A stretch of 64,000 bases of DNA, taken from NCBI RefSeq assembly GCF_014904745.1, contig NZ_JACZCS010000001.1:124001-188000 (forward strand), in the 5' to 3' direction. This DNA comes from Oricola nitratireducens (GTDB lineage Bacteria > Pseudomonadota > Alphaproteobacteria > Rhizobiales > Rhizobiaceae). Shown here one piece after another: positions 45,636-49,973 of the stretch. Both the position numbers and the translations under genes were made by a program. The notes beneath the pieces are model-generated. The model was not told where the DNA came from and did no database searches. It worked only from the letters and a program-made list of their open reading frames with translations. Position 1 is the first letter of the stretch. Every line of letters begins with the position of its first letter.

Positions 45636-47168
45636 TCACGCCGCCGACGCCAGCCGTTCTCCCGCGATACGATAGGAAATCGCCTCGGCGACGTGGATGC
45701 GGCCGGTCTGCGCCGCGCCATCGAGATCGGCGAGGGTGCGCGCGACCTTCATGATGCGGTGATAGGCGCGGGCGGAAAACTTCATCTGGTCGGCGGCGTT
45801 GCTGAGCAGTTCGAGCCCGCCGGCATCGACATCGGCGACCTGTTCGATCAAGGCCGTCGGGCAATGGGCGTTGGTGGTGACGCCCTTGATGCCGAGCGCC
45901 GCATAGCGTTCCGTCTGGATGAGGCGCGCGGCGGCGACGCGCCTGGCGACGGAGGCGCTCGTCTCACCGGGACGCGAGCGGATCAGGTCGCCCGGCATGA
46001 CGGCCGGCACCTCGACACGCAGATCGATCCTGTCCATCAGCGGACCGGAGATACGCGCCTGATAGTCAGCCTGGCAGCGCGGACCGCGCGCACAGGTGTG
46101 GCCCGGCTCGCCGGCCATGCCGCAGCGGCACGGGTTCATCGCCGCGACCAGCTGGATACGCGCCGGATAGGAAACGCGGTGATTGGCGCGGGCGATGACG
46201 CATTCGCCGGTTTCCAGCGGCTGGCGCAGCGCATCGAGCGCCTGCGGGGTGAATTCCGGGAACTCGTCAAGAAAGAGCACGCCGTTATGGGCGAGCGATA
46301 CCTCGCCCGGCTTCACGCGCAGGCCGCCGCCGACCATCGCCGCCATGGAGGCCGAGTGATGCGGCGCGCGGAAGGGCCGGCGGTCCGACAGCTTGCCGCC
46401 GGCAAGATGGCCGGCGACCGAGGCGATCATCGAGACGTCGAGCAGTTCGGCAGGCGAGAGCGGCGGCAGGATCGAGGGCAGGCGCTGCGCCAGCATGGAC
46501 TTTCCCGAGCCGGGCGGGCCGACCATCAGAAGATTGTGCCCGCCGGCAGCGGCGACCTCGAGGGCGCGCTTGGCCGTCTCCTGACCCTTGATGTCGGAGA
46601 GATCGGGCAGGTTCGCGGGCAGTTCGCGGCGCGCCGGTTGCGGCCGCGACAACACCTGCGTGCCGCGGAAATGATTGGCGAGCGAGATCAGGCTGGCGGG
46701 CGCGATGATGTCGACCTCCTCGCCGGCCCAGGCGGCCTCGGGGCCGCAGTCGCGCGGGCAGATCAGGCCCTTGCCTTGCGCGTTGGCCGCGATCGCCGCG
46801 GGCAGGACGCCGGCAACCGGCGCAATGGTGCCGTCGAGCGAGAGTTCGCCGAGCACCGAATAGCCGGACAGCGCGTCGGCCGGCACGGCGCCGAGCGCCG
46901 CCATCAGGCCGAGCGCGATCGGCAGGTCAAAATGCGAGCCTTCCTTGGGCAGGTCGGCGGGCGCCAGATTGACGGTGACCTTCTTGGGCGGCATCGACAG
47001 GCCGGAAGCATGCAACGCCGACTGGACCCGCTCGCGGCTCTCGGCGACCGCCTTGTCGGGCAGGCCGACGATATGCATGTTCACCTTGCCGGGCGCGACC
47101 ATGACCTGGACATCGACCGGCACGGCCTCGATGCCCTGGAACGATACTGTCGAAATGCGCGAAACCAT
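45636..47168 (-). CDS. comM: ComM/YifB-family Mg-chelatase-like AAA ATPase
   Basis: The 510-residue protein has the N-terminal ChlI-like domain (IVGLPDKAVAESRERVQSAL near residue 35), the P-loop GPPGSGKSMLAQRLP near residue 217, Walker B around LFLDEFPEF near residue 300 and a C-terminal domain with conserved cysteines. ComM is a hexameric helicase that drives branch migration during integration of foreign DNA in natural transformation. In related genomes it normally follows gshB directly; here an insertion separates them. Confidence 0.93.
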   Translation of the reverse strand: MVSRISTVSFQGIEAVPVDVQVMVAPGKVNMHIVGLPDKAVAESRERVQSALHASGLSMPPKKVTVNLAPADLPKEGSHFDLPIALGLMAALGAVPADALSGYSVLGELSLDGTIAPVAGVLPAAIAANAQGKGLICPRDCGPEAAWAGEEVDIIAPASLISLANHFRGTQVLSRPQPARRELPANLPDLSDIKGQETAKRALEVAAAGGHNLLMVGPPGSGKSMLAQRLPSILPPLSPAELLDVSMIASVAGHLAGGKLSDRRPFRAPHHSASMAAMVGGGLRVKPGEVSLAHNGVLFLDEFPEFTPQALDALRQPLETGECVIARANHRVSYPARIQLVAAMNPCRCGMAGEPGHTCARGPRCQADYQARISGPLMDRIDLRVEVPAVMPGDLIRSRPGETSASVARRVAAARLIQTERYAALGIKGVTTNAHCPTALIEQVADVDAGGLELLSNAADQMKFSARAYHRIMKVARTLADLDGAAQTGRIHVAEAISYRIAGERLASAA

Positions 47169-47310
47169 GAGCCTGCCCCCGCTGGATGGGGCTATTAAGA
47201 CTCAGAAAACGGAACAAGACAAGAACAAATTTGCAACCTTTGCACGCAACGCGTGATTCCGGGTTGTGCCCGGTTGCAGCCGTGGAACAAAAGGTTAAGG
47301 CGCGAGCGTC

Positions 47311-47353
47311 AGCGCTTCGCCTCGACCGCATCCCAGAACAAAGCGGCGATGTC
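47311..47353 (-). repeat. Displaced original 3' end of gshB (left direct repeat, putative att site)
   Basis: These 43 bases match 48592-48634 at 41 positions. Read on the minus strand they encode [14 protein letters not shown] followed by TGA, exactly the end of GshB. Both differences are synonymous (GTC/GTG and GAT/GAC), and the stop codon differs (TGA here, TAA in the live gene). This is therefore a severed gshB tail that lies where gshB should end before comM. Confidence 0.85.
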
Positions 47354-47414
47354 TGTAATTATCGACAATTCAATCGATATCTATAAAAAGTACCTCTCGC
47401 TAAAAAGGGGTTAG

Positions 47415-48557
47415 ATGATGAATGCTTCACGTCTTCGGGGCCTGCTTGACCACTTAATAGAGCTAAATTCGCGTCATCGGATCGCGAAATTATTATCGGC
47501 GGCTCACGGCCAACTCAGCAATCTCGCGGGTGAGCCGAGCAATGCATCTCATCAACAGGCATTGGTTGCATCAATTGTGAGTCTGGAAAATGCAGAAAGC
47601 GAAATGCTTTCCGAACTTACGCCCGCGCAGTTAGATTTCTTGGACGAACTGGATGGCCATACCTACTTCGATGGATCCATCGCTGATTTCATTCGAGAAA
47701 TTTTATCTGAAAATCCCGCCACACCTTCAGTCGCGCGCGACAAATTAGGTGAGTTTCAGACTGAACGAAATACATACCTCGAAAACATCACGAAGTTACG
47801 CGACTCGATGGAGCAACTGGGCATTGTTTCCGAGCCGTTGGAAGAGGGTCAAGCTGAGGTTGGTTTCTTAATACCGAGAGAAGTTTTCGAAAGCGAATTG
47901 AACAAGCTAATCGCTGAGTTGCGGATTCTGCGAAGAATGGTCAGGGCGTTTTCTGAGGCCTCAACGGGTGGCGCAGAAGAGATCGAAGTCCGTAGCATCT
48001 CAACATCAGATCCGTTGTTTTTCTTTGGACTTGGCGTCCCCACTATAATTGCAATCGGAAAAGCGACCACATGGGCGCTGAGTACTTGGAAGCAGGTTGA
48101 AGAAATCCGAAAGATTCGCGCGGAAACAGAGCACGTAAATGCGCTGAAAGACGGAGAAGTGGCGAAAATCCTTGACGCAAAAATCACGGAAACAATTGAA
48201 GCGGAAGTTAAAAAAGAGGCTGATAGAATTGCGAAGGCTTCACCCACTGATGGAGCTCGTAAGAATGAGCAGCGAACTGACCTCGAGTGGACGCTCAAAT
48301 CGCTTCTTGCCCACATTGAACGAGGTGTCACGATAGATATTCGCTTGGCGAAACCATCTATGGAAGTAAACGAGGAAGGTGAACCGAGGGAGCCGCCTGA
48401 AGCCTACCAAACACTTCAAAAGCTCACCACCGAACTTATTTTCCCACCTATTGGCGAAAGCGAACCGATCCTACAAATCCCGGCGCCGCCTGGTGATGAC
48501 AACACAAGCAGCAGAAATGCATCAACGCGAAGAAGGCGCCCTACCGCAAAGGAATAG
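47415..48557 (+). CDS. Unrecognised 380-residue protein on the gshB insertion
   Basis: I do not recognise the family with confidence. Residues 1-130 are predicted mainly helical, 155-180 form an amphipathic Leu/Arg-rich helix (ELNKLIAELRILRRMVRAFS), and one hydrophobic segment at 199-220 (DPLFFFGLGVPTIIAIGKAT) could span the membrane. A charged coiled coil follows at 225-275, and the tail is Arg/Lys-rich (residues 374-380). The layout suggests a membrane-anchored oligomer with a soluble sensor part. Codon use is AT-richer than all neighbours. A GGGG ribosome site fits either ATG 47415 or 47418. A TATAAA -10 box at about 47388 may drive it. Confidence 0.8.
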   Translation: MMNASRLRGLLDHLIELNSRHRIAKLLSAAHGQLSNLAGEPSNASHQQALVASIVSLENAESEMLSELTPAQLDFLDELDGHTYFDGSIADFIREILSENPATPSVARDKLGEFQTERNTYLENITKLRDSMEQLGIVSEPLEEGQAEVGFLIPREVFESELNKLIAELRILRRMVRAFSEASTGGAEEIEVRSISTSDPLFFFGLGVPTIIAIGKATTWALSTWKQVEEIRKIRAETEHVNALKDGEVAKILDAKITETIEAEVKKEADRIAKASPTDGARKNEQRTDLEWTLKSLLAHIERGVTIDIRLAKPSMEVNEEGEPREPPEAYQTLQKLTTELIFPPIGESEPILQIPAPPGDDNTSSRNASTRRRRPTAKE

Positions 48558-48564
48558 GCCACCG

Positions 48565-48591
48565 GGCGATTAGTTAAGCGCCATTTTTTTT
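48565..48591 (+). terminator. Weak terminator-like sequence after the insertion gene
   Basis: A short GGCG/CGCC stem with an A/T-rich loop is followed by eight T residues on the plus strand, just before the right direct repeat. The stem is only four pairs, so termination may be inefficient. Confidence 0.4.
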
Positions 48592-49528
48592 AGCGCTTCG
48601 CCTCCACCGCGTCCCAGAACAAAGCGGCGATGTCGGCGCCGCCGAAGTTCTTCACCTCACGGATGCCGGTGGGAGACGTGACGTTGATTTCCGTCATCAA
48701 TCCGCCGATGACGTCGATGCCGACCAGGATGAACCCGCGTTCGCGCAATGACGGGCCGATGCGCTCGCAGATCTCCAGCTCGCGCGCGGTCATCTCGGTC
48801 GCCAGCGCCTTGCCGCCGACATGCATGTTGGAGCGGGCGTCGTTCTCGTCGGGGACACGGTTGATGGCGCCGACGGGCTTGCCGTCGATCAGGATAATGC
48901 GCTTGTCGCCGCCGCGCACGTCGTCGAGATAGCGCTGGACGATGATCGGCTCGCGCGTCAACTGGCCGAACATCTCCATCAGCGAGGTCAGGTTGCGGTC
49001 GCCGTCGCGCAGGTGGAACACGCCGGCCCCGCCATTGCCGTAGATCGGCTTGAGGATGATGTCGCCGAACTCGCGGCGGAAATCCCAGATCTCCTCGATG
49101 TCCTTGGTGATCATCGTTTCCGGCATCAGGTCGGCGAACTCGGTGACGAAGATCTTCTCCGGCGAATTGCGCACCCAGGCCGGATCGTTGACGACCAGCG
49201 TCTTCGGGTGGATGCGCTCGAGCAGATGCGTCGTGGTGATGTAGTTCATGTCGAAGGGCGGATCCTGGCGCAGCAGCACCACGTCCATTTCCGACAGGTC
49301 GGTACGCGCCGCGGCGCCGAGGGCGTAATGATCGCCCTGCACGTCGCGCACGGTCAGCGGTTCGATGCGGGCACTGACGGCGCCGTTGCGCATGGTCAGG
49401 CGATCCGGCGTGTAATGGAAAAGTTCGTGGCCGCGCGCCTGCGCCTCCAGACACATGGCGAAGGTCGAATCGCCGGCAATCCGGACAGTTGAGATATGGT
49501 CCATCTGGACGGCGACCTTGAGAGCCAT
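48590..49528 (-). CDS. gshB: Glutathione synthetase
   Basis: The 312-residue ATP-grasp enzyme joins gamma-glutamylcysteine and glycine. [20 protein letters not shown] near residue 85, [12 protein letters not shown] near residue 160 and [12 protein letters not shown] near residue 285 are the normal active-site motifs. The last 14 codons and the TAA stop lie in the right direct repeat and probably came with the insertion, which keeps the protein intact. The upstream neighbour is yraN, the standard order. Confidence 0.96.
48592..48634 (-). repeat. Right direct repeat forming the current gshB 3' end (putative att site)
   Basis: This copy is the functional end of gshB, with the TAA stop at 48590-48592. 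It matches 47311-47353 at 41 of 43 bases, including a shared run of 23 identical bases at the inner side where recombination could have occurred. Confidence 0.85.
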
Positions 49529-49586
49529 GATTTCGTTCCCGTTGAAAACCGACCGCTTAAGTGGCGGGTTCGGAGCGGAAAATCAA

Positions 49587-49973
49587 TCAGGGATAAATCG
49601 CGATGACGTGAACCGGCCAGCGGCGGGGCAATACTGCGACCAGATCGAAGCGCATGGACAGGCGGGCATGGTCCGGCTGGCGCGACAGCCAGATGTCCGC
49701 GGCAGCCTCGATGCGGCGCAGCGCCGCCGGGGTGACGGCGTCCATCGCCTGCGTGAGCGTCGGGCGCGCCTTGACCTCGACAATGGCGACGAGATCGCCG
49801 CGCCGGGCGATCAGGTCGATCTCGCCGGCAGGGGTCTTGAAACGGCGGGCGAGGATGCGGAAACCCTTGAGGCGGAGCGCCCAGGCGGCAAGGATCTCGC
49901 CGCGATGGCCGAGGCCATAGGCGGCGCGGCGCTTTTGTTTCGCCGGCTCACGGCTCATTGCTCGTCTTGCCAT
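49587..49973 (-). CDS. YraN/UPF0102 family nuclease-like protein
   Basis: The 128-residue protein has the restriction-endonuclease-like core [20 protein letters not shown], near residues 50-70, preceded by [17 protein letters not shown]. These are the PD-(D/E)xK nuclease positions. Its role is unsettled and may relate to Holliday junctions or DNA uptake. I prefer the ATG at 49973 because it follows AAGGG, although this overlaps rsmI by 26 bases. The place between rsmI and gshB is conserved. Confidence 0.92.

Follow-up and report, generated by a model that had tools for sequence, protein, structure and literature searches.

We have found that the 3' end of the glutathione synthetase gene gshB of Oricola nitratireducens is duplicated around an AT-rich segment that carries a single gene of 380 amino acids (aa) and no recognized integrase. 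This arrangement is probably the product of site-specific recombination, by which a one-gene unit resembling a cis-mobilizable element (CIME) was placed at the gshB 3' end. The whole stretch of DNA that was analyzed, 64,000 nucleotides (C13:124001-188000), is referred to as the window; the features of the junction, in window coordinates, are as follows.

45636..47168, minus strand: comM (Mg-chelatase-like ATPase), the downstream neighbor, beyond the displaced gshB tail.
47169..47308, no strand: native gshB-comM spacer (comM leader), 140 bp, delimited by comparison with outgroup spacers.
47311..47353, minus strand: displaced native gshB tail (repeat 2), with a TGA stop at 47309-47311, followed by a gshB-comM spacer of ancestral type.
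47354..48591, no strand: inserted AT-rich segment, 1238 bp, G+C content 0.481, absent from the junctions of the outgroup and of G001 and G003.
47415..48557, plus strand: 380-aa ORF of an orphan family, the longest in the insert, convergent with gshB (from the ORF list; four relatives at 25-39% identity).
48590..49528, minus strand: gshB (glutathione synthetase), live copy, stop TAA (from the ORF list; Pfam GSH-S_N and GSH-S_ATP).
48592..48634, minus strand: live gshB tail, att-like repeat 1, a direct repeat with a score of 38 against a shuffle maximum of 12.

The two copies of the gshB tail are 43 bp each, are identical at 41 of 43 positions (95%), and lie 1281 bp apart, start to start. Both internal differences are synonymous (GAC/GAT and GTG/GTC), and the reading frame is intact in both copies; the stops differ, TAA in the live tail and TGA in the displaced one, and the protein end stays the same. 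The ungapped repeat score never exceeded 12 when 60 flank pairs were base shuffled, and same-strand repeated 20-mers in the 64-kb window occur only within this pair. The G+C content falls to 0.481 between the copies, whereas the window averages 0.643 (standard deviation, 0.035; 500-bp windows). The original prediction had proposed a second gshB end with an in-frame TGA 1.3 kb from the live end, differing from it by two synonymous bases and the stop codon, and an AT-richer segment between the two; all of these points agree with the measurements. The insert holds one sizeable ORF, which the shorter ORFs overlap, and is present once in its own genome (G000). Neither a terminator nor a promoter was supported for the ORF, and Rfam at gathering thresholds gave no matches in 46900-49600. 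As a separate observation, the interval 1251-1750 is the sole other 500-bp window in the 64 kb with a G+C content below 0.56.

Comparison with a neighboring genus indicates which tail is the older. In all five outgroup genomes (G311, G200, G259, G351, and G127), gshB has a single tail that ends in TGA and runs straight into the comM leader, where TTTGTTCC (TTTGCGTTCC in G127), CAACC-like words, and GTTCTT precede comM; the distance from the stop to GTTCTT is 65 to 76 bp. In the window, a spacer of the outgroup type stands behind the displaced tail and not behind the live one, with 82 bp to GTTCTTG. Because the outgroup-type comM leader comes after the displaced copy, this copy is the old, native gshB end, and the live end either arrived with the insert or was completed by it. 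The codons GCT TTG are common to both window tails and absent from the live tails of five congeners; therefore, the incoming tail would have come from a very close relative or been copied from the host. The stop codons add less. The live gshB ends in TGA in none of the six genomes of the genus (G000 to G005), unlike the five outgroup genomes and both displaced tails (those of the window and of G005); however, in ten further genomes from other genera of the family the stop is TGA in three, TAA in four, and TAG in three, and since it varies across the family, the stop codon alone says little.

The same junction is occupied repeatedly within the genus. In a sample of 61 genomes searched, 30 (including that of the window) were given as loci and comM was placed in 24, of which 18 had gshB-comM gaps of at most 212 bp, two had gaps of 314 and 426 bp, and four had gaps of 789 to 1421 bp. 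All four long gaps belong to the genus of the window, in four of its six genomes seen. Three different gene contents are found there: the 380-aa ORF (G000), a similar small protein in two genomes (G002 and G005), and an RDD protein (G004). The protein at the G002 and G005 junctions (L004 977-1453 and L006 2464-2973) is small, is hydrophobic by eye, and has no Pfam match. Behind its cargo, G005 retains a decayed displaced gshB tail that ends in TGA and agrees with the displaced tail of the window at 33 of 45 bases, against a maximum of 24 in 2000 shuffles; it lies 142 bp from comM (140 bp in the window) and is followed by the same spacer, the distance to GTTCTTG behind the displaced tails being 82 to 83 bp. 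In G002 and G004 the spacer is kept and no tail relic was found. The two remaining congeners, G001 and G003, have no insert and have merely 32 to 36 bp between the stop and the shared GTTCTTG; because this spacer is shorter than that behind the displaced tails, these junctions may have been emptied rather than never filled. The checks named in the original prediction turned out mostly favorable: an empty site with a single TGA-ending tail was seen in all five genomes of the neighboring genus, and the insert-free congeners have the shorter spacer and a stop other than TGA. The gshB tree resolves the genus only in part, and for this reason we have left the insertion events uncounted.

In the wider family, a tail pattern with at most two mismatches matched 80 of 151 genomes (a sample that left out G002, G004, and G005). 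In this pattern search, the 150 other genomes lacked a second tail. Fresh duplications of the gshB tail are rare, since G000 alone carries two tails among the matched family genomes. Twenty further regions were fetched, either because the gap seemed long or comM was unplaced or for comparison; the gap was short in nine and measured 584 to 3273 bp in 11, where other genes and no clear tail repeat were seen. Judged by eye, the contents of the long gaps are what we take to be a channel-like protein, a beta-lactamase-fold-like protein, IS-like transposases, and other genes. Because these gaps hold other genes without a clear tail repeat, the junction seems to take in DNA by other routes too, as ordinary insertions. 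Two apparent inserts were rejected, a 12.7-kb one in G243, where comM sequence lies 186 bp from gshB, and a 0.57-kb one in G092, where comM sequence lies within 154 bp of gshB; G243 (L032) also has a second, full-length comM place about 12.7 kb away. A 16-base similarity in the middle of the gap in L040 (E value, 0.008) was set aside.

The 380-aa ORF could not be assigned to a known family or fold. Its two matches in Pfam are far below the cutoff, and PADLOC, PHROGs, and NCBIfam gave nothing; the PADLOC scan thus places it in no known antiphage defense family. An AlphaFold2 model built on five sequences is mostly helical (mean pLDDT, 77.4), and Foldseek found no matches to it at an E value of ≤0.001 in the PDB and viral libraries. 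Two domain assignments for the ORF family were not used: CARD_2, found in one relative only (Pfam E value, 0.0025), and QatB, matched weakly in one of five members, not the window ORF (E values of 0.014 in PADLOC and 0.0069 in NCBIfam). Relatives are few. One of 393 other genomes of the family has one (G006, 36% identity), on a different contig from gshB; two of 296 other genomes in an order sample that overlaps the family sample have one (G621, 27%, and G592, 26%); and a metagenome-assembled genome named Kiloniellales (L056) has one at 39%. Two weak partial matches among 288 other genomes of the class were dropped from the ORF family, as was a partial match at 22% in Fulvivirga (L057), and no relatives were found in plasmids, phages, or viral contigs. 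With a relative in 1 of 393 family genomes, at 36% identity and not on the gshB contig, the insert does not have the appearance of long vertical descent, the finding that would have spoken against an insertion.

The ORF has a lower G+C content than its locus in all five cases: 0.49 against 0.64 in the window, 0.39 against 0.47 in L058, 0.51 against 0.61 in L059, 0.51 against 0.67 in L060, and 0.42 against 0.67 in L056. Flanking repeats are less uniform, two of the five loci being without one and one being borderline. No flanking repeat was found at L058 and L055; the borderline case, L056, has a repeat of 16 of 19 bases with a score of 11.5 against a shuffle maximum of 10.5, and was not used. 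The relative in G006 lies 306 bp from the 3' end of a tRNA-Leu gene, has no flanking repeat, and is about 0.8 kb from the end of its contig.

The relative in G621 lies between two perfect 16-bp repeats (L059 7257-7272 and 9988-10003), one of which consists of the last 14 bases of a tRNA-Ser(GCT) gene plus two bases. Besides the relative, a 164-aa ORF with no match in Pfam lies in the 2.7-kb segment between them. The edges score 16, and 60 shuffles did not exceed 10; when 3 kb of flank was compared blind with 3 kb, however, the 16-mer reached an E value of only 0.073, and the same comparison gave lower E values for L056 and L060 at positions other than their insert edges. A further copy of the last 14 bases of this tRNA-Ser is found nearby in opposite orientation. 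In congeners of G621, the matches of G978 and G967 begin exactly at the tRNA end, and the similarity of G963 passes it by 6 bp, or by 61 bp in a gapped comparison; the site in G963 and G978 is occupied by a different stretch of about 1.1 kb, and similarity on the far side starts again some 43 bp outward of the repeat. When five congener loci were compared with the whole G621 region, the segment L059 7273-9928 was unmatched except for 29 bases in one of them. This is the sole match seen between the two inserts, a 90% similarity of L087 3229-3257 (the G978 insert) to L059 8708-8736, beyond the end of the ORF relative. An empty tRNA-Ser site was not found among the congeners compared. In another congener, G971, about 145 bp separate this tRNA end from the start of a protein that combines Arm-DNA-bind_3, Phage_int_M, and Phage_integrase domains. 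Small accessory genes seem to gather at the tRNA-Ser end in this genus, as at a hotspot. As to what else lies there, G978 has a 273-aa ORF without a Pfam match (L087 2408-3229), and G963 (L086 576-1308) has an ORF with a UvrD tudor domain and another with a weak TIR-effector match (PADLOC E value, 1.4e-4).

An integrase was sought both within the window and beyond it. The genome has nine PF00589 places, none of them in the window; on its contig, the closest lie at distances of about 150 and 250 kb. The ORF was also considered as a recombinase itself and rejected, since the invariant columns of the five-sequence alignment hold no tyrosine and no resolvase or integrase model is among its matches. 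No integrase was thus detected in the insert, in agreement with the original prediction, and the ORF list, Pfam, and tblastn with the integrases of G000 and G971 revealed no remains of a mobility gene there; serine recombinases at the locus were covered solely through the Pfam/NCBIfam scan of the 380-aa ORF. The same tblastn queries gave no match in the loci of the four relatives; the neighbors of these relatives were otherwise judged from ORF lists with length cutoffs, and no integrase was recognized near them. Nor was a parent element found: no integrase-bearing element was seen at gshB in the junction regions examined, none of the viral contigs matched the exact gshB tail patterns, and BLAST of a 55-base tail query against phages gave no record with 80% cover and 18 partial matches with E values of 0.3 or worse. 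An element with a tyrosine recombinase that uses the gshB tail, which the original prediction had suggested looking for, was not recovered in any of these sets. In plasmids, 210 records match the gshB end, the best among the 20 listed being Shinella at 81% and Sinorhizobium at 78% (DNA).

We propose that a small nonautonomous unit, 1281 bp if circular and carrying one 380-aa gene, would have recombined site specifically at the gshB 3' end. Its att site would bear a gshB tail, so that gshB would receive a new end and the native tail would be pushed toward comM. The likely agent would be a tyrosine recombinase that either acted in trans from another element or entered together with the incoming DNA and disappeared shortly afterward. 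As cargo, the 380-aa gene is probably one of the accessory genes with which integration hotspots are typically filled; that it serves in phage defense is a guess. Site-specific recombination fits better than transposition or illegitimate joining because the copy on the insert side completes the gene, the native spacer stands behind the displaced copy, G005 has a decayed tail with other cargo, and a relative of the ORF sits at a tRNA end beside which a congener has an integrase. In this respect, the original proposal of integration at a gene 3' end, with the incoming DNA restoring gshB, is supported by the native spacer behind the displaced tail and by G005. The variation of the stop codon in the family and the modest blind E value of the G621 repeat slightly lower the odds of this explanation and of the broader cassette reading considered below.

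Three alternatives need to be weighed. The strongest, which we nevertheless consider doubtful, is decay in place, in which a full ICE, IME, or prophage at gshB was reduced to one gene and two att sites. This would be a classical CIME, which by definition has lost its integration and transfer genes and retains attL and attR, as set out in an extract of PMC5704250. An old event would also fit the absence of TGA from all six live tails of the genus, but the stop varies elsewhere in the family. The event looks young, however: the codons of the displaced tail remain intact, and GCT TTG is present in both copies and not in the live tails of the five congeners. Furthermore, the insert shows no detectable trace of a mobility gene, and each of the four inserts found in the genus is small. 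Because these four inserts are small and the displaced tail is intact, we lean toward a one-gene unit moved in trans rather than shrinkage in place.

It is improbable that foreign DNA was taken up and joined by homologous recombination at gshB and illegitimately at its other end; the other genes at the same junction in congeners could have been shuffled by interspecies exchange, but such uptake leaves unexplained both the second joint exactly at the tail copy and the tRNA-Ser repeat in G621. Least probable of all is an unknown transposition mechanism that duplicated 43 bp of the target, kept as a minor rival because the tail may be a copy of the host's own, which would give both copies the same unusual codons, and the first bases of the insert could complete the stop of the live copy; against it, target duplications are usually far shorter than 43 bp, no inverted repeat of at least 14 bp was found to pair the insert ends, the ORF has no transposase match in Pfam or NCBIfam, and the decayed tail with other cargo in G005 and the tRNA-Ser-end repeat around a relative point to fixed sites.

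By its observed content, the integrase-less unit that we favor resembles neither an insertion sequence or transposon, which would have a transposase and terminal inverted repeats, nor an ICE or IME, which would have an integrase of its own. It resembles a CIME in that no integration, conjugation, or other transfer genes were found in it and in that the 43-bp putative att repeat at a gene 3' end would correspond to attL and attR kept as direct repeats of the target. It differs from a CIME as described in that extract, since it is one gene in 1.28 kb with no sign of a parental ICE or IME, and its mobility is putative. Tyrosine-integrase islands at tRNA 3' ends are known as P4-type islands; the relative of the cargo that occupies a tRNA-Ser end, with a tyrosine integrase beside that end in a congener, is reminiscent of them, whereas the unit in the window is at gshB and has no integrase. 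Integron gene cassettes are one-gene mobile units that need a recombinase encoded elsewhere, and the unit shares with them a single gene without its own recombinase; it differs in that its repeat is a gene 3' end. The ssrA islands of Dehalococcoides provide a partial parallel: in the available portion of PMC3146451, cargo lies between direct repeats of a gene 3' end, with 20-bp repeats downstream of ssrA and a serine recombinase integration module (DsiB) in many islands, though not all. The cargo in the window likewise lies between direct repeats of a gene 3' end; unlike the islands with a module, no recombinase module was found at gshB in the window. In the literature searched, no paper joins gshB, an integrase, and an attachment site, and one cyanobacterial review brings together gshB, an integration site, and a genomic island. 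The kind of event is known, and gshB is a probable new addition to the list of integration sites; two things are unusual, the use of gshB as the target and a unit that consists of one orphan gene and leaves the displaced tail fully readable.

It can be speculated, although we regard it as unlikely, that the locus represents a hidden class of one-gene cassettes, equipped with a gene-end att site but with no recombinase, which borrow the integrases of resident islands and use the ends of protein genes such as gshB as well as those of tRNA genes, a cassette economy without an integron. Searches anchored on integrases would miss such units. In conclusion, the gshB locus of O. nitratireducens holds an integrase-less one-gene unit in which both gene-end repeats can still be read, and because one distant relative of its ORF lies inside a repeat of a tRNA-Ser end, it provides a testable case of whether single genes move by borrowing the integrases of other elements.
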